From a virus, in the IMG/VR virus record IMGVR_UViG_3300048922_000121, positions 1 through 39,816 of that record: a stretch of 39,816 bases of DNA; one strand, written 5' to 3'. The notes beneath the pieces are model-generated. The model saw only the letters and a list, made by a program, of their open reading frames with translations, was not told the origin of the DNA and searched no databases. Position 1 is the first letter of the stretch; each line of letters begins with the position of its first letter. A program made the position numbers and the translations under genes. Positions 3,631 through 39,765 of this stretch are shown here, piece by piece.

Positions 3631-3959
3631 CGGCGACCCCTCTTTTCCTTCATCGCTTTCGCGCACTCCTGGGCGTGACGGACATACAAGACGTCGATCA
3701 TGGTCTTGTAGCCATCGGCCGTATCCTGGAAGCCGTCCGGCCCGATGAAATTCGCGGTCAGGCTGCTGTGCAACATGATTTGCAGGCGCATCATGGCGAT
3801 GAGTACGTGGGCGGGGTTTTCCCCTCGCTTCATTTCCGAATCGAGCCACTCCTGAAAACCCTGCACCCATCTGCTTGCGGTCGCGCGGGCAACAATCCGC
3901 GTCGTCGCGTCGCTGGAAAGAAGTCCCTCTTCCATGCCGATTGCGATGAACTCGCTCAT
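3627..3959 (-). CDS. Small helical protein, unknown function
   Basis: A 110-residue soluble protein starting MSEFIAIGMEEGLLSS. It is mainly helical, with a basic C-terminal tail (KAMKEKRGRR). Start and stop overlap both neighbours by four bases. No motif, signal peptide or membrane segment is visible. It is translated directly after the excisionase-like gene in the leftward operon. Function unknown. Confidence 0.7.
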   Translation of the reverse strand: MSEFIAIGMEEGLLSSDATTRIVARATASRWVQGFQEWLDSEMKRGENPAHVLIAMMRLQIMLHSSLTANFIGPDGFQDTADGYKTMIDVLYVRHAQECAKAMKEKRGRR

Positions 3960-4267
3960 GCCCCTACCCTTTCATTGACGAAGATCAGGCGCGGGCCGGC
4001 ATGCACATAGGCGGCACGCAGGCGGGCGCGGTCGGTGGCGATGCTGGTGGTGGAACGGGCGTCGATCTGCTGGGCGGCCTTTTGGTCGCCATAGCCCCGG
4101 ATCCATGTCTCGATCGCAACGCGCGACCAGCGCTTGCGACCAGGCAGCCGATCGGGCATGCCCTCGAAGTTGATGAGCTGGCGCACCTTCCGCATGAAGT
4201 GCGCCCGCCCGATGCCGAGGGCCGCGGCAATCTCGCCGGCCTCGATCGTCGTTTCCTGCAGGTTCAT
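3956..4267 (-). CDS. AlpA/excisionase-like winged-helix DNA-binding protein
   Basis: A 103-residue protein heading the leftward operon. Residues 10-60 (GEIAAALGIGRAHFMRKVRQ, through RLPGRKRWSRVAIETWI) match the MerR-like winged-helix pattern of AlpA and Xis proteins: helix-turn-helix, a short wing with basic residues, then a helix beginning AIETW. Such proteins bend attachment-site DNA for excision or activate int expression. The ATG at 4267 is preferred over a GTG at 4282 because GGAGA lies eight bases before it. Its promoter region holds TTTGCAAA-type operators, so the repressor probably controls it. Confidence 0.7.
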   Translation of the reverse strand: MNLQETTIEAGEIAAALGIGRAHFMRKVRQLINFEGMPDRLPGRKRWSRVAIETWIRGYGDQKAAQQIDARSTTSIATDRARLRAAYVHAGPRLIFVNERVGA

Positions 4268-4283
4268 GTTTCGCGTCTCCACA

Positions 4284-4338
4284 GTTGCAAATCACTGCGA
4301 GAGGCAGAATGCACGTTTGCAATGTGATTTGCAAACGT
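4284..4338 (-). promoter_or_regulatory. Operator/promoter of the leftward operon
   Basis: It holds a perfect 10-bp inverted repeat with six bases between arms (ACGTTTGCAA at 4313-4322, TTGCAAACGT at 4329-4338) and a further inverted GTGATTTGCAA-type half at 4284-4295. The 12-mer GTGATTTGCAAA (4324-4335) recurs exactly at 5305-5316 upstream of the Cro-like gene. On the minus strand TTGCAA and CATTCT stand 17 bases apart and could be -35 and -10 boxes lying within the operators. The repressor is the likely binder. Confidence 0.6.
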
Positions 4339-4446
4339 AAATGTGCAATTCACGCACATGATTGATTTAAGCAAACGAAATGCACAAACGCCCGGCTTTG
4401 TCTCCGGACGAATTTGCAAATCTGTATCTAAGCGATCGCCCGAAAA
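4339..4446. other. Gene-free AT-rich control DNA
   Basis: More TGCA-containing words occur here (AATGTGCAATTCACGCACAT at 4340-4359, then AAGCAAACGAAATGCAC), continuing the operator-like texture. No gene is supported on either strand. Confidence 0.4.
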
Positions 4447-4572
4447 GGGCACGCCCTCAGTTCAATGGTAAAACGGAGTTTGGGCATGCCCCGAATTCAG
4501 TGTGGGCACGCAGCGAGGGCATGCCCTCAATTCAATGCGCAACTTATGCGGGGGCTTGCCCTCAGTTCACTG
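4447..4572. repeat. Four 21-bp repeats at an exact 35-bp period
   Basis: Copies start at 4447, 4482, 4517 and 4552. Each has a palindromic core GGGCAYGCCC (GGGCTTGCCC in the last copy, GGGCATGCCCC in the second) followed by a tail close to TCARTTCAATG. The 14-bp spacers are unrelated to each other, and one holds a partial core (GGGCACGC at 4504). The array lies between the repressor's 3' end and the leftward operon operators. It may be a cooperative binding site, partition-like site or iteron set. The protein that binds it is not known. Confidence 0.85.
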
Positions 4573-4597
4573 CGGCTCGGGAAAAGACAAAATCCAG

Positions 4598-5209
4598 TCA
4601 ATGCCGGATATGGGCGCCGCCGACGACGACGCCGACGATCACGACATTTTCATTGTCGACGATCTCGGGTGTGCCCGGCTCGTCATTGGCTGCCGCCGTC
4701 AAGAGATACGGCGTGCGCCAAACACGGAACAACGTCTCCGCCGTGCCGCGCCGAAAATCATACTTTTGAGCAAGGACGGCGTCGCCATTCCTCGGTGTCT
4801 CATCTCTATCCACCAAAACCACCATGCCGGCCGGATATCCCACGGCAGCCAGCGACCCCGTTTTGAGCCGCCAGAGATCAACCGAGTTGGATCTGCCAAT
4901 TGCCTCGGAAAGGGAAAGCTCAAGAGGATTGACGCTGGCCTTGTCGATCACATAGGGGATCGCTTCCCCTTCACTGAAAGCCTGGATCCTCGGCGTCGTT
5001 CTTGCCTCATAGGCCGGAACCTTCGTCGCATCCTCGATCTTCTTGACTGTACGCGACGTTAGGGTGTGACCACCGGTGTCGTTGTTCTTGAAACGCGTCA
5101 AGGTTGAAGGCGTCAAACCTGCAACGCGAGCGATCTCCGTGAACGTGATGTTCCCGGATCGGCTGATGTGGTCCAGCCATGCCAACTGCTGATCGCGCAA
5201 TGATGTCAT
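4598..5209 (-). CDS. CI-like repressor with S24/LexA-like C-terminal domain
   Basis: A 203-residue lysogeny repressor. Residues 20-45 (ITFTEIARVAGLTPSTLTRF) form a helix-turn-helix. Residues about 107-203 resemble the S24 fold, with GYPAGMVVLVDRDETPRNGD matching the typical region before the strand pair. A Ser is present at TGSLAAV, but the expected catalytic Lys position reads FRVWRTPYL, so self-cleavage is uncertain. Starts at 5209 or 5239 are possible and neither has a ribosome site. TTGGTG and TATTGA 17 bases apart would place transcription start near 5239, suggesting a leaderless message. It is transcribed away from the Cro-like gene. Confidence 0.85.
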   Translation of the reverse strand: MTSLRDQQLAWLDHISRSGNITFTEIARVAGLTPSTLTRFKNNDTGGHTLTSRTVKKIEDATKVPAYEARTTPRIQAFSEGEAIPYVIDKASVNPLELSLSEAIGRSNSVDLWRLKTGSLAAVGYPAGMVVLVDRDETPRNGDAVLAQKYDFRRGTAETLFRVWRTPYLLTAAANDEPGTPEIVDNENVVIVGVVVGGAHIRH

Positions 5210-5225
5210 GCGCGGGAATATCGCA

Positions 5226-5328
5226 GTTTGCAAACCCATGTTCAAAACTCAATACAGCTATTGACTTTGCACACCAAATCACACGGAGATGTGCAAAATC
5301 AAGAGTGATTTGCAAATCGGATACCGCA
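5226..5328. promoter_or_regulatory. Divergent repressor/Cro operator-promoter region
   Basis: It contains a perfect palindrome GTTTGCAAAC (5226-5235), TTTGCAC (5266-5272), GTGCAAAATC (5291-5300) and GTGATTTGCAAA (5305-5316), all sharing the TTTGCA core seen again at 4284-4338. TTGACT at 5261 could be a rightward -35, although no good -10 is seen at normal spacing. The leftward TTGGTG/TATTGA pair would drive the repressor. The arrangement matches a temperate-phage switch in which repressor and Cro-like protein compete for these sites. Confidence 0.65.
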
Positions 5329-5559
5329 ATGCACACGTTTGACGAGATAGATGCACGACGCCAGCGGCTGGGCCTGACCCAAAAGGAACTTTGCGTTCGC
5401 GCGGATGTCCATGAGGGCACCTATAGCCGCTATTGCGGCCGCGATGCGCAAAGCGAGCCGACACCCCGGATCCTGCGGAAGTTGGACACTGCCCTTGCGC
5501 AGATTGCTAGCGAGCGTGGCGTCGTGCTCGTCGAGGAAACCAGAGGAGCAAGACAATGA
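5329..5559 (+). CDS. Cro-like small helix-turn-helix protein
   Basis: A 76-residue protein starting MHTFDEIDARRQRLGLTQKE. Residues 15-45 (LTQKELCVRADVHEGTYSRY) are a Cro/CI-type helix-turn-helix. There is no dimerisation or protease domain, so it fits the Cro role. An upstream in-frame extension would run through the operator palindromes and is rejected. No clear ribosome site precedes the ATG, so the mRNA may be leaderless. It is the first gene of the rightward operon, overlapping the next gene by four bases. Confidence 0.75.
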   Translation: MHTFDEIDARRQRLGLTQKELCVRADVHEGTYSRYCGRDAQSEPTPRILRKLDTALAQIASERGVVLVEETRGARQ

Positions 5560-7312: not shown

Positions 7313-7828
7313 ATGCTGAATTTTACCGAGCTTGATCTGATGATGAAGGCTTCAAACATCTCCGATGCTGCGGTGATCCGGATCGCAGGACTGCAGACGA
7401 GCTACCTTGCTCGACTGCGTGCCGGCGTGAAGCCGCTGACGCCGACGATGGCGCGGCGGATCCAGCTGGCGATCGCCAGGCTGCGCCGTGGCGAGAGCAA
7501 TGTCGATCGCGCCCTGCCCTCTGCCTGCTATCGCCTGGCCGTCGCCTATGTCGCCCATGCCCGGGGCAAGACGGCGGATTTTGTGCTTTCGGCCGATCCC
7601 GGCAAGCGCGCAACGGCCGACAAGGTTTGGATGGAAGCGGCGCAGTTGCGCCGTTGGGCCATCTACATCGCAAACCAGTATCTCAACCTGCCGCAAGCCG
7701 AGTTGGCCCGCGCCGCCGGCATGAGCAAAGCGGCCGTGAGCTACGCCATGAACGATGTGGAAGATGAGCGCGGGGATCCGGCGCTCGAAGCGCTGCTGGC
7801 GGCCGTGGAAGGGGCGTTCTCCATATGA
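7313..7828 (+). CDS. Double helix-turn-helix protein, DnaA C-terminal-like domain
   Basis: A 171-residue protein. The N-terminal part (LMMKASNISDAAVIRIAGLQ, then SYLARLRAGVKPLTPTMARR) is a Cro-like helix-turn-helix. The C-terminal part (AAQLRRWAIYIANQYLNLPQ, then AELARAAGMSKAAVSYAM) resembles the DnaA domain-IV helix-turn-helix that reads origin DNA. An intervening segment could link them. The start at 7313 is preferred over one 11 codons earlier, which gives an unlikely N-terminus. Just upstream of the primase-like and helicase genes, it may recognise the phage origin or regulate the early operon. Confidence 0.7.
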   Translation: MLNFTELDLMMKASNISDAAVIRIAGLQTSYLARLRAGVKPLTPTMARRIQLAIARLRRGESNVDRALPSACYRLAVAYVAHARGKTADFVLSADPGKRATADKVWMEAAQLRRWAIYIANQYLNLPQAELARAAGMSKAAVSYAMNDVEDERGDPALEALLAAVEGAFSI

Positions 7829-8940
7829 ACCGCCGCGACGACACTGCCGATATCAAGCAGGGGCTGAAAGATCGCATCGTCGATCTTTGCACCAGGCTGT
7901 TGCCGGACGGGCAGCTGCAGGGGCGGCTTTGGGTGGCGCACAATCCTATCACCTGCGATCACCATAAGAGCGCGGAATTCAAGGTGGCCGTTACCCGGGA
8001 TATTGGCGCCTGGAAGGATTGGCGCACGGGCGAGCATGGCGACGTCATCGGCCTGCTGCAATATTGCCGGCAGTGCGATTTCCGCGAGGCGATGGACTTT
8101 GCCCGCGATTTCCTCGGCATCCGGCAGATGACACGGAAGGATTTCGCGCGCTTCCAGGAGCGATCGGCCGAGGCGCGCGCCAAGGCCGAGCAGGACGGCG
8201 AGAAAAAGCGACTGCAGAACATGGCGATGGCCGAGCGGCTGTTCCACAAAGGTTATCTCGACGGCGCCGGCAGCGCGGCCGAGGCGAATGCGCGGGCTTA
8301 CTTCGCAGCCAGGCGCATTCCGCTCGAGCAGATCCCGAACCGGGATCTTGCCACCATGCGTTATTCCCCTGGTCTCGAGTATTGGCGCCGAGCACAATTC
8401 AGCCGCGCCGGCGGCAAGATGATCAAGATCTCGGAAGGGCCGAGCTTTCCAGCGATCCTTTCCGCCATGCGCACGCCGACCGGCCAGCTTTCCGCCTGCC
8501 ATTGCACCTTCCTTTCGCCTCTCGGCCCCAAAAAGCTGCCCGTAGAGAAGGACGAAAACGCCAAGCTGATGCGCGGCGAAGCCACAGGCGCGATGATCCG
8601 GATCAGCCACGGACCGGAAGGCGTGCCGCCTGAGGTGGCAACGCAGGCCTGGCCGCTGCTTCTCGGCGAAGGGATCGAGACCACGGCCTCGGTGTCGATC
8701 GAGGCGCCCGAAGCCCGCGCATGGGCGGGCGGCAGCCTTTCAAACATGGGCAACGCGCCGGTGTGGCTGCCCTGCATCTCGGCCGTGATCGTGCTGAAGG
8801 ATCATTTCAAATCCAAGACCACGGAAAAGCAATTCGCCGGCGTGCTGGAAAAGCTGGCGGCGGCCGGCAAGCCGATCAGCGTGATCGAGAGCATCGCCGG
8901 CAATGATTTCAACGACCTGCTGCAGGAAGGGGATGAATGA
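7825..8940 (+). CDS. Toprim-domain DNA primase-like protein
   Basis: A 371-residue protein. Residues 35-98 resemble a degenerate CHC2 zinc-binding module (ITCDHHKSAEF, ending HGDVIGLLQYCRQCDFREAM). Residues 276-367 form a Toprim domain, with LLLGEGIETTAS supplying the catalytic Glu282 and GNDFNDLLQ closing the domain. The usual DxD pair is weak (VIVLKDHFKSK), as in many phage relatives of plasmid primases. It should make primers for phage DNA replication with the ATPase encoded at 11761. It overlaps both neighbours by four bases. Confidence 0.85.
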   Translation: MNRRDDTADIKQGLKDRIVDLCTRLLPDGQLQGRLWVAHNPITCDHHKSAEFKVAVTRDIGAWKDWRTGEHGDVIGLLQYCRQCDFREAMDFARDFLGIRQMTRKDFARFQERSAEARAKAEQDGEKKRLQNMAMAERLFHKGYLDGAGSAAEANARAYFAARRIPLEQIPNRDLATMRYSPGLEYWRRAQFSRAGGKMIKISEGPSFPAILSAMRTPTGQLSACHCTFLSPLGPKKLPVEKDENAKLMRGEATGAMIRISHGPEGVPPEVATQAWPLLLGEGIETTASVSIEAPEARAWAGGSLSNMGNAPVWLPCISAVIVLKDHFKSKTTEKQFAGVLEKLAAAGKPISVIESIAGNDFNDLLQEGDE

Positions 8941-9611
8941 TGCCAATCAAGACGACAAACGAGGGCGCGGCAAAGGCGCTGACGGTCAAGATCAAGGATG
9001 GCGAGCTGCGAATATCGATCGGCATTGGCCTCCGCGCCCATGCGGTTCAAATGCAGGGCAGCTGGCCTGAGGAGTTCGAGATCACTGACATTCGCGATTT
9101 CGCGAAGTCGATGCGTTACCAGTTGATCCGCGAGGAAGAGGACGGCACCATGCCTGTTCATCGCATGTTCGACAAGGCGGCCTTAGGCGTACTTGAGCAA
9201 GGCGATCCCGGCGTTGACGAGGGCAGCGCCGAGAATGGTCTCAAGACCGCCAAAGCCTTCATCAAACAATTGGAGCTACAGGCGCGGCCGGAAGGAGCGC
9301 CGGCGCCAGCCGAGCACCATTGGTTTTCGAAAGCGTTTATCGATGTCGGCGCCGAGCGGCGTCGCCAGATCGAAGTCGAAGGGTATTCCTACGACCACGA
9401 CGACCAATACCGCCAAGGCGAGCTCGAGCGGGCCGGCGCAGCCTATGCCCTTTATTCTTGCCGGCCCGGTTTCTGGTTCGTCAACGACATATGGGCTTTC
9501 TCGCGCCGCTTTTGGAAGCCGCGCAGCCATCGTGAAAACCTTGTCCGCGCGGCCGCTTTCCTGATCGCTGCGATCGAAACCATTGATCGCAGGGAGCAAT
9601 CTGGTGGCTGA
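8937..9611 (+). CDS. Conserved phage protein with two parts, unknown function
   Basis: A 224-residue protein. The C-terminal 95 residues (KAFIDVGAERRRQIEVEGYS, then YDHDDQY, GELERAGAAYALYS and a W/F-rich SRRFWKPRSHRENLVRAAAF) match a domain recurring in tailed-phage early regions, often as RRxQxxxEGxxxxHDD. Its biochemical role is unknown to me. The N-terminal part has a small beta-rich section and a helix. ATGs at 8937 and 8940 are equally usable after GGAAGGGG. It is coupled to the primase-like gene. Confidence 0.7.
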   Translation: MMPIKTTNEGAAKALTVKIKDGELRISIGIGLRAHAVQMQGSWPEEFEITDIRDFAKSMRYQLIREEEDGTMPVHRMFDKAALGVLEQGDPGVDEGSAENGLKTAKAFIKQLELQARPEGAPAPAEHHWFSKAFIDVGAERRRQIEVEGYSYDHDDQYRQGELERAGAAYALYSCRPGFWFVNDIWAFSRRFWKPRSHRENLVRAAAFLIAAIETIDRREQSGG

Positions 9612-9885
9612 GAATTTCAACCCGATGGATGTTTCAGGAAAGAACGACGTCGAGAACAACGCCGGCGCCGAACTGCGCCAATTCATCGAGCGTGTCGAGC
9701 GCCTGAACGAAGAAGGCAAAGCCATTAACGACGACAAGGCCGATATTTTTGGCGAGGCCAAAGGCCGCGGCTACAACCTGAAAGCGATCAAACGCATCAT
9801 TCGCGATCGCGCGAAGGATACCAACGAGCGGCTCGAGGAAGAGAGCATCTACGAGACCTACAAAGCCGCTCTTGGGATGGACTGA
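9604..9885 (+). CDS. GapR-like nucleoid-associated protein (DUF2312)
   Basis: A 93-residue protein matching the GapR/DUF2312 pattern: AELRQFIERVERLNEEGKAI near the N-terminus, then FGEAKGRGYNLKAIKRIIRD and a charged helix ending IYETYKAALGMD. Caulobacter GapR is an essential protein that clamps overtwisted AT-rich DNA ahead of replication and transcription. The start is the GTG at 9604, seven bases after AGGGAG. An ATG at 9583 lacks such a site. Carried in a phage replication operon, it may help phage replication or relieve supercoiling, or compete with host GapR. Confidence 0.85.
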   Translation: MAENFNPMDVSGKNDVENNAGAELRQFIERVERLNEEGKAINDDKADIFGEAKGRGYNLKAIKRIIRDRAKDTNERLEEESIYETYKAALGMD

Positions 9886-13973: not shown

Positions 13974-14533
13974 CGATCGACACTCATCATTCATCGCAAA
14001 ATCCAAGGTGTGAACCCGCCTTTGCCCTTCCATATCCATGTTCCCCCGCCCCAAAACACCGGCGCATTTAACTCTCTTCCCCCGCCCCGGAGGGAGAGAA
14101 AGCGGAGCCCGCGCGCGTTCAGCGCAACGCTTGCGGAGCCAGTTGAAGGCCCGAAATGCCTATGTGGCCGCTCGCTTCGATAGTGCGATGTCGCTGGCGC
14201 GCGGGCACTTAACGCAGCGGGAACCGTGTGAGCTTTCAGGGTGCGGGACGGATTTGCGGCTCGCCTTCACTGCCCGGTAGACGGGTAGACGATCGGTAGA
14301 CGAGCCGTCTACCGCGTTTCTTCAACGAAAACATAGGGTTATTGCGATGGTAGACGAGTAGACCAAATATAGAGGCTTTTTATGCGCGCGCGGGCGCGTC
14401 ACGTGAGAATAATATTCGTCTACTTGTCTACCAATAGGTATATGTTCCTGATTTTATTAAAGAAACGCGGTAGATAAAACGGTCGACAACGGTAGACGGC
14501 GTCGACCGGAATAAACAAATAGGGAAATAACCG
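13974..14533. other. 560-bp gene-free region between early and late modules
   Basis: No convincing gene. An 80-codon plus ORF at 14038 has an Arg/Pro-rich translation and no ribosome site. The right half is AT-rich and carries the GTAGAC array. Its place between the replication operon and the terminase genes suggests the late promoter, a replication origin or the packaging start. Confidence 0.6.
14277..14497. repeat. Array of nine GTAGAC hexamers
   Basis: Direct copies start at 14277, 14285, 14296, 14350, 14358 and 14492. Inverted copies (GTCTAC) start at 14307, 14418 and 14426. Three pairs are tandem with an 8-bp step (14277/14285, 14350/14358, 14418/14426). GGTAGACGAGCCGTCTACC (14295-14313) is a perfect dyad. 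The second and third pairs form a near-perfect 20-bp inverted repeat about 50 bp apart, around 14348-14433. A protein binding GTAGACNN dimers is implied; which one is unknown. Confidence 0.8.
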
Positions 14534-15169
14534 ATGACCGGCGACGACGGCGACAATTTGGGGCTTCCAGTGGCACACACGCCGGAGCGCGCTGAAAAAA
14601 AAAAAATCGGAGCGACGGCAGCGGCAACCGAGGCCGCAATGGCCGACCTGGCGGCCGAGCTGCAGCCCGAGGCCGAACCCGAACAGCAATCGCTACTGCT
14701 CGATGAGCTGGACGCGCAACAGTCTCTGTTCAAGGGGCCGGTGAAACACGTCGCGTCAACACTGGATGCCGCTTTCAGGGCGCGGGGGAGGCCGAAGGGC
14801 AGCCAGAACAAAGCGAGCAAGGAATTCGCGCAGACACTCATGCGCATGGGCTTCAAGCATCCTGGCCTCAACCTCGCTGCCCTGGCGAATGCGGATCCGG
14901 TGGAGCTAGCCAAGGAACTGTCAGTCGAGGAACGCGACAAGAATGGCGTCATCTGGCGCGTCGGATGCGACCCGGCAAAGGCGATGGACATGATCATCAA
15001 GGCCAATGCCGAGCTGCTGCCCTACTTCGAGAGCAAGCGACCGCAGCCGAAGGACGATGGCGATAGCGATCGGCCGCTCGGCGTGATGTATATCGGCCAG
15101 ATGAATGTCGTCCAGGCCGACGATAAGCGTACGATCGACATCACGCGCGTTGATAGCCCGGATAAGTGA
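14534..15169 (+). CDS. Probable terminase small subunit
   Basis: A 211-residue protein just upstream of the large terminase. It has a charged disordered N-terminus (TPERAEKKKIGATAAATEAA), then AFRARGRPKGSQNKASKEFA, a basic segment like those in small-terminase and DNA-binding phage proteins, then helices. Assignment rests mainly on gene order, since no conserved HTH is clear. A run of 12 A at 14595-14606 encodes EKKK and would tolerate slippage or sequencing error. If a base were lost or gained, the real start could lie downstream at MADLAAELQPE. Confidence 0.55.
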   Translation: MTGDDGDNLGLPVAHTPERAEKKKIGATAAATEAAMADLAAELQPEAEPEQQSLLLDELDAQQSLFKGPVKHVASTLDAAFRARGRPKGSQNKASKEFAQTLMRMGFKHPGLNLAALANADPVELAKELSVEERDKNGVIWRVGCDPAKAMDMIIKANAELLPYFESKRPQPKDDGDSDRPLGVMYIGQMNVVQADDKRTIDITRVDSPDK

Positions 15170-22189: not shown

Positions 22190-22840
22190 ATGAGCATCGA
22201 CAAGACGACCATCATCAACTGGGCTCTGACCGATATCGGCGCCGGCCCCATGTTTTCCGTCGACGACGACAGCGATCTCGCCATGCAGATCGCGGCGACC
22301 TGGCATCGCACTGTCGACCACGTGTTCGGCATGCACGACTGGACGTTTCTTTGCGTGACAGCGCGCATGCGCCGCCTGGCCGAACCGCTCGATAATGGCT
22401 GGGCCCATGCCTACGATCTGCCGAGCCCGCGCCTGTCCAATCCCATCGCCTATCTTCGTCGCATTGTGCCGCGCAAGGAACTGATCCGGAATTTCACCCT
22501 TCAGCAGGGCAAGTTTTGCTGCATGGAGCCCGAAGCGTGGGCTGTATACAAAACCTACCAGGATCCGGATTATTGGGATCCGCCATTTCGCGCCGCCTTC
22601 GTCAAGGCGCTTGGCGGCAACCTCGCAATTCCGGTCTGGCAGGATAGCCAGCTGCAGAGCGACAAGCTGACTGAGGCCTTTGGCACGCCCTCAATGCAGG
22701 GCACCGGCGGCATGATTGGTCGCCTGATGGCGCAGGACAAAGGCTCCAGGCCTGTCGGCGAAGAAAGTCTGCTTGCCCATGATCCCCTGACGTCAGTCCG
22801 CCCGACAGGCGAGGATCTTCCGTGGCATGGGAGGTGGTAG
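22190..22840 (+). CDS. Tail tubular protein A (T7 gp11-like)
   Basis: A 216-residue protein. The N-terminal pattern INWALTDIGAGPMFSVDDDS and HRTVDHVFGMHDWTFLCVTA matches T7 tail tubular A, as does the length (T7 gp11 is about 196). In T7 it forms the ring joining portal to gp12. GGGGCGGC-like bases sit just upstream of the ATG. It abuts the next gene at adjacent bases. Confidence 0.88.
   Translation: MSIDKTTIINWALTDIGAGPMFSVDDDSDLAMQIAATWHRTVDHVFGMHDWTFLCVTARMRRLAEPLDNGWAHAYDLPSPRLSNPIAYLRRIVPRKELIRNFTLQQGKFCCMEPEAWAVYKTYQDPDYWDPPFRAAFVKALGGNLAIPVWQDSQLQSDKLTEAFGTPSMQGTGGMIGRLMAQDKGSRPVGEESLLAHDPLTSVRPTGEDLPWHGRW

Positions 22841-39689: not shown

Positions 39690-39765
<76 letters not shown>

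Follow-up and report, generated by a model that had tools for sequence, protein, structure and literature searches.

The window, a stretch of 39,816 nucleotides, is a rhizobial prophage integrated between 46-bp repeat copies, at 32-77 and 39690-39735, that correspond to the end of a tRNA-Thr gene. Four 21-nt copies at 4447-4572 (starts 4447, 4482, 4517 and 4552) form an array between an S24 repressor gene (4598..5245, minus strand), whose stop codon lies ~24 nt before the array, and a xis/AlpA-like HTH gene on the opposite side (3956..4282, minus strand). The first-pass annotation had described four 21-bp repeats at an exact 35-bp period, and this description holds: the spacings are 35/35/35, identity to the first copy is 76-90%, and the 21-mer with up to 3 mismatches matches five sites in the window (the four copies and 22681) against 0.03 expected by chance. 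Its GGGCAYGCCC palindromes need amending. The cores are palindromic, but the fourth is GGGCTTGCCC, so the centre is variable, and the repeated unit is longer than 21 nt and has a direction. Its minus-strand sequence is gCAYTGAAYTgAGGGCNNGCCCt (26 nt, edges included); in the repressor sense, a tag CAYTGAAYT is followed by the palindrome AGGGCNNGCCCT, and one copy carries the tag variant CAGTGAACT. The four units on that strand, each tag plus palindrome, are gCAGTGAACTgAGGGCAAGCCCccgc (4548..4573), gCATTGAATTgAGGGCATGCCCtcgc (4513..4538), aCACTGAATTcGGGGCATGCCCaaac (4478..4503) and cCATTGAACTgAGGGCGTGCCCtttt (4443..4468). These copies score 31-38 bits on their own profile and the next best window site 17.6 bits, an isolated weaker match at 22677-22702 in the late region. 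No site comparable to the array copies was found elsewhere in the five phage genomes scanned, window included.

An A+T-richer stretch with TTTGCA operators (4283..4442, minus strand) runs from the array to the xis-like gene; it is a possible unwinding region and also the xis promoter region. TTTGCA/TGCAAA sites occur at 4286-4420 and 5227-5316 and none falls inside the array, which the first-pass annotation had called distinct from the operators. A terminator-like hairpin at 4592-4609 spans the repressor stop codon and precedes the array, and a search for promoter-like sites in 4200-5400 gave none. In the early operon, on the plus strand, a gene at 7313..7828 encodes a 171-aa double-HTH protein, with an N-terminal XRE/Cro-type HTH and a C-terminal DnaA-domain-IV-like HTH, that we propose as the array binder. 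The next gene encodes a primase (7825..8940, plus strand; Toprim_3/DUF7146), whose start codon is overlapped by the double-HTH gene in the window, G006 and G276.

We assembled a comparative set from three starting points: the repressor on its own (17 homologous loci among 396 genomes), the tag, and the double-HTH protein. In 24 phages (the window and its relatives), 3-6 copies in one orientation form an array that separates the end of the repressor gene from the xis-like gene. In L010 and L011, the closest phages found first (repressor 75% identical), the array is at the same place with a near-identical tag and the palindrome TGCMCGCGKGCA. With the copies lined up by palindrome centre, a tag CACTNRAY starts 16 bp before that centre in nearly all of them; the tag drifts at single positions and resembles TTGACAAA in one group, and G555 has two half-site copies whose register is shifted by one or two bases. 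The palindrome is constant within a phage and different in most of the 24, examples being GGGCNNGCCC in the window and G001, TTGGRCGYCCAA in G005 and L158, TGCMCGCGKGCA in G003 and G004, AGGAACGTTCCT in G006, GTAACGCTAC in L162, TTGCGCGCAA in G268, L164 and L166, ACCGCGYGCGGT in G013 and G014, TGTCCGGACA in G016 and G636, CGTCCGGACG in G042, GCTACCGGTAGC in G068 and GGAGCGCTCC in G276. Copies are spaced by 24-27, 33-38 or 45-48 bp (about 25, 35.5 and 47), with a single spacing of 80 in G068. These classes lie one helical turn apart, and on a 10.5-bp turn the less frequent spacings are in phase with the usual one (p = 0.0003 per phage).

A three-copy chain stands behind the repressor in 15/16 array loci and 0/5 array-less loci; among the roughly 25 control stretches taken at each locus, 0-4 had one. 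Small accessory genes, short membrane proteins and in G630 a nuclease-like ORF, have been inserted to one side or the other of the array, in the interval from the repressor to the xis promoter, in L138 (G002), L146 (G016), L147 (G068), L158 and L202 (G630). Searching phage records with the whole array DNA returned no match, and a three-palindrome pattern matched only unrelated tandem repeats in viral contigs. Matches to the tag pattern were mostly 33-bp coding repeats or simple repeats and were discarded, the genuine finds being only L017, L022, L024, L031, L100 and L110. Across 396 genomes of the family, a pattern scan yielded G001 alone because tags vary.

The units could instead act as RNA hairpins at the 3' end of the repressor transcript, as a terminator or stabiliser. 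Their predicted RNA fold is stable (z = -4.2), and array-less G370 has a Rho-independent-type terminator hairpin where the array would stand. However, any G+C palindrome set folds well, the array has no Rfam match, and a terminator-like site is already present at the repressor stop. The copies also keep helical phasing, and their palindromes, constant within a phage, change between phages with a DNA-binding helix (see below). One L010 copy even carries the palindrome inverted, mismatch included, and the palindromic part is therefore probably read symmetrically. We regard the RNA reading as hardly credible.

We then asked which ORF accompanies the array. Among ORFs common to 21 loci, the double-HTH protein stands out, occurring in 16/16 array-bearing loci and 1/5 array-less ones (p = 0.0008); conversely, arrays occur in 16/17 loci where the two heads are fused versus 0/4 where they are not. 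A DnaA-IV-like ORF lies upstream of primase in 21/21 loci, fused or not. The first-pass annotation had reasoned that relatives with the same flanking genes but lacking the repeats would count against a second DNA-binding system. Such relatives do exist, namely L152 (G370), L153 (G372) and L155 (G087), but there the heads are separate XRE and DnaA-IV-like ORFs upstream of primase, so that the exception strengthens the link between array and double-HTH protein. In array-less G356, only the DnaA-like half was found upstream of primase. The pairing is not universal, since arrays were absent from the searched sequence of several phages with fused proteins (G127, L163, L167, G772, G547, G544 and more distant ones). 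Host DnaA boxes occur in the intergenic region, one each, of the three array-less split phages and of G005; we did not use them as evidence because some overlap operator-like sequence.

The N-terminal half of the protein matches Cro/HipB/C-protein HTH domains, with a predicted recognition helix at about residues 27-36, and the C-terminal half matches DnaA domain IV (E = 1.4e-6). Its AlphaFold model is all-helical with two HTH domains (pLDDT 88). Foldseek searches with this model placed DnaA on top and C.BclI, C.AhdI and SinR among the N-domain matches; all hits, DnaA included, fell short of E = 0.001. A Pfam scan of 16 members gave XRE/HTH and a weak Bac_DnaA_C match below the cut-off; Rep_3 was absent among the families shown, and there was no AAA match. 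The best NCBIfam match of the C-terminal half is PRK06030 (E = 8.5e-7, far below the family cut-off), a small alphaproteobacterial hypothetical protein without the N-terminal XRE HTH. Such domains recur widely in the order: 67/397 genomes matched the profile, most in the C-terminal part only. A search of 50,697 named phage records, at the sensitivity applied, detected no relatives of the double-HTH protein, nor did one of plasmid records at the cut-offs used, and the repressor likewise had none in named phage records at the cut-offs used.

We further investigated which protein tracks the palindrome by comparing, across 23 phages, pairs that share a palindrome with pairs that do not, C-domain similarity being factored out. 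We assigned the palindrome groups by eye, and only five groups share a palindrome. This same/different test took the place of a rank Mantel test on the full range of palindrome similarity, where the correlation was low (r about 0.2) since dissimilar palindromes are uninformative. Pairs with one palindrome have a far more similar N-terminal recognition helix (p = 5e-5, the permutation limit), also without close relatives (p = 0.0004), while the C-terminal helix shows no association with the palindrome in the same test (p = 0.35). A sliding scan of the entire protein places the peak of association at residues 27-35, in the predicted recognition helix. Individual phages follow the same rule. L158 carries a domain swap in which residues 1-44 are 86% identical to G005 (66% to G001), while residues 45-94 and 95-171 are 90-94% identical to G001; its palindrome is of the G005 type, that of the HTH donor, and its xis is of the G001 type. 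Despite dissimilar repressors, L164 and G268 share the helix GRRTYD and the palindrome core TTGCGCGCAA, as G042 and G636 share the helix SERS.R and the core GTCCGGAC. Tag similarity, for its part, correlates with similarity of the C-terminal helix (r = 0.50, p = 0.0002), which could partly come from common descent.

Other phage proteins might bind the array, and the xis/AlpA-like protein and the repressor are both linked to it. Tested alone, each associates with the palindrome (p = 0.0002 and p = 0.007, respectively), which we attribute to their being genomic neighbours. In a joint test, the xis-like protein falls to p = 0.36 while the double-HTH helix stays at p = 5e-5. L158 and G001 have xis proteins 88% identical but different palindromes. 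Similarly, the repressors of the window and G003 are 76% identical and both phages have TTTGCA-type operators, yet the palindromes differ, which bears out the original proposal of a second DNA-binding system separate from the repressor. Binding by xis, repressor or another phage protein thus seems very unlikely. An array serving as a parS-like partition site or as attP arm-type sites is still less plausible, at the limit of what we would consider. It is a row of palindromes with a ParB-like gene and an integrase nearby, but the phage integrates, and its att repeats in tRNA-Thr are more than 4 kb from the array. In addition, the ParB-like protein is very similar (by eye) in the window and L022/G005, whose palindromes differ, so that the palindrome does not follow it as it might in a ParB/parS pair.

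On these comparisons, the repressor, the xis-like protein and the ParB-like protein do not explain the palindrome. Of the three candidates named at first, the ParB-like and excisionase-like proteins find no support, and the double-HTH protein fits. Altogether, the array, its phasing, the covariation and the co-occurrence strongly suggest physical binding, and we consider it highly likely that the double-HTH protein reads the array sites. Each copy in the array would be a composite site for this phage-encoded protein: a dimer of the N-terminal Cro/C-protein-type HTH would read the phage-specific palindrome and, more tentatively, the asymmetric tag CACTNRAY would be read by the C-terminal DnaA-domain-IV-like HTH. 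Copies 25, 35-36 or 46-48 bp apart would stay on one helix face, so that bound proteins could stack cooperatively.

What this binding would achieve is less certain. The double-HTH protein might control transcription as an early regulator in a lambda CII/Cro-like position, acting on repressor read-through or on the xis-int operon. Indeed, the array has the repressor on one side and the xis-int promoter region on the other, and the protein is an early-operon HTH protein with a C-protein/SinR-like N domain. Against this, its sites are confined to the array and absent from other promoters, the 4200-5400 interval is devoid of promoter-like sites, and the DnaA-IV-like ORF is kept upstream of primase at each of the 21 loci. 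The distance from array to xis start also ranges from ~110 to 430 bp among phages, and G002, G016, G068 and L158 carry small inserted genes on one side or the other of the array. G630 has another repressor type and keeps both array and double-HTH protein. Transcription control is the leading alternative, and we consider it possible but unlikely. The position in the primase operon, the DnaA-like head, the array-only sites, G630 and the inserted genes lead us to favour iterons over a promoter-linked regulator. Initiator-coated iterons would lie beside the A+T-rich operator region, where primase and helicase would then be recruited; since the protein is made upstream of primase, the array would most likely be the phage replication origin. 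Replication-origin iterons for a double-HTH initiator are, from sequence, the best explanation of the array and the one we lean towards, with moderate confidence in the origin function; the first-pass annotation had listed replication iterons among its options. Three features count against the origin reading: a flat GC skew, with no turning point at the array; an unspecific A+T signal, the excess on the xis side being found in most phages, array-less ones included; and a second repeat cluster at ~14190-14510.

Several known systems combine some of these features. At the lambda origin, the N-terminal half of the O protein binds four short repeats that are separated by short spacers and adjoin an A+T-rich region; lambdoid phages differ in initiator/ori specificity, and blocking of phage replication through titration of the initiator has been shown for lambda ori (PMC4488673). 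The window likewise has four short repeats with short spacers, and the adjoining stretch is A+T-richer. Unlike in lambda, however, the array (4443-4573) lies outside the proposed initiator gene (7313-7828), 2.7 kb away at the immunity region, its sites carry an extra near-constant tag, and the protein combines an XRE HTH with a DnaA-IV-like HTH. Rep_3-type iteron plasmid initiators (RepE, pi) have two DNA-binding heads per protein, each reading part of the repeat, and their cooperativity depends on helical phase (PMC4980987). The double-HTH protein similarly has two heads, proposed to bind copies that are in helical phase, but those of Rep_3 proteins are two winged helices, whereas ours are a Cro-type HTH and a DnaA-domain-IV-like HTH without a Rep_3 match. 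As in iteron-type origins, the array consists of several direct repeats in one orientation and fixed helical phase. The C-terminal domain resembles the domain IV HTH of DnaA (a similarity, with Bac_DnaA_C below the Pfam cut-off), but the protein lacks the AAA+ domain III and has an added N-terminal HTH, proposed to read the palindrome; nor, unlike at oriC, is the tag CACTNRAY a DnaA box.

A limited search of the open-access literature found no description of this protein type or array. We see roughly an even chance that they represent a new initiator class, a Cro/C-protein HTH fused to a DnaA-domain-IV-like HTH with no ATPase, acting at a composite-iteron origin whose specificity changes by swapping the N-terminal HTH together with the palindrome. 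The 24 natural examples and the natural domain swap offer a readable code between about seven residues of one helix and a palindrome, which opens this protein-DNA specificity to direct testing. Should the array be an origin, it would represent a simple two-headed, ATPase-free way of marking a phage origin, and its site within the immunity control region could couple repression and replication.

Two further features were observed in the window. At 14190-14510, about 10 copies of GTCTACC/GGTAGAC in both orientations surround an A+T-rich core directly before the likely terminase small subunit ORF (14533-15169), and in many related phages the corresponding position holds clusters of CGGTWACC; the window cluster may be a cos/pac site or another candidate origin. 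The phage also encodes a GapR-like nucleoid protein (9583-9885; NF010247, E = 3e-26), whose ORF family is present in 14/16 array-bearing loci and 0/5 array-less loci.
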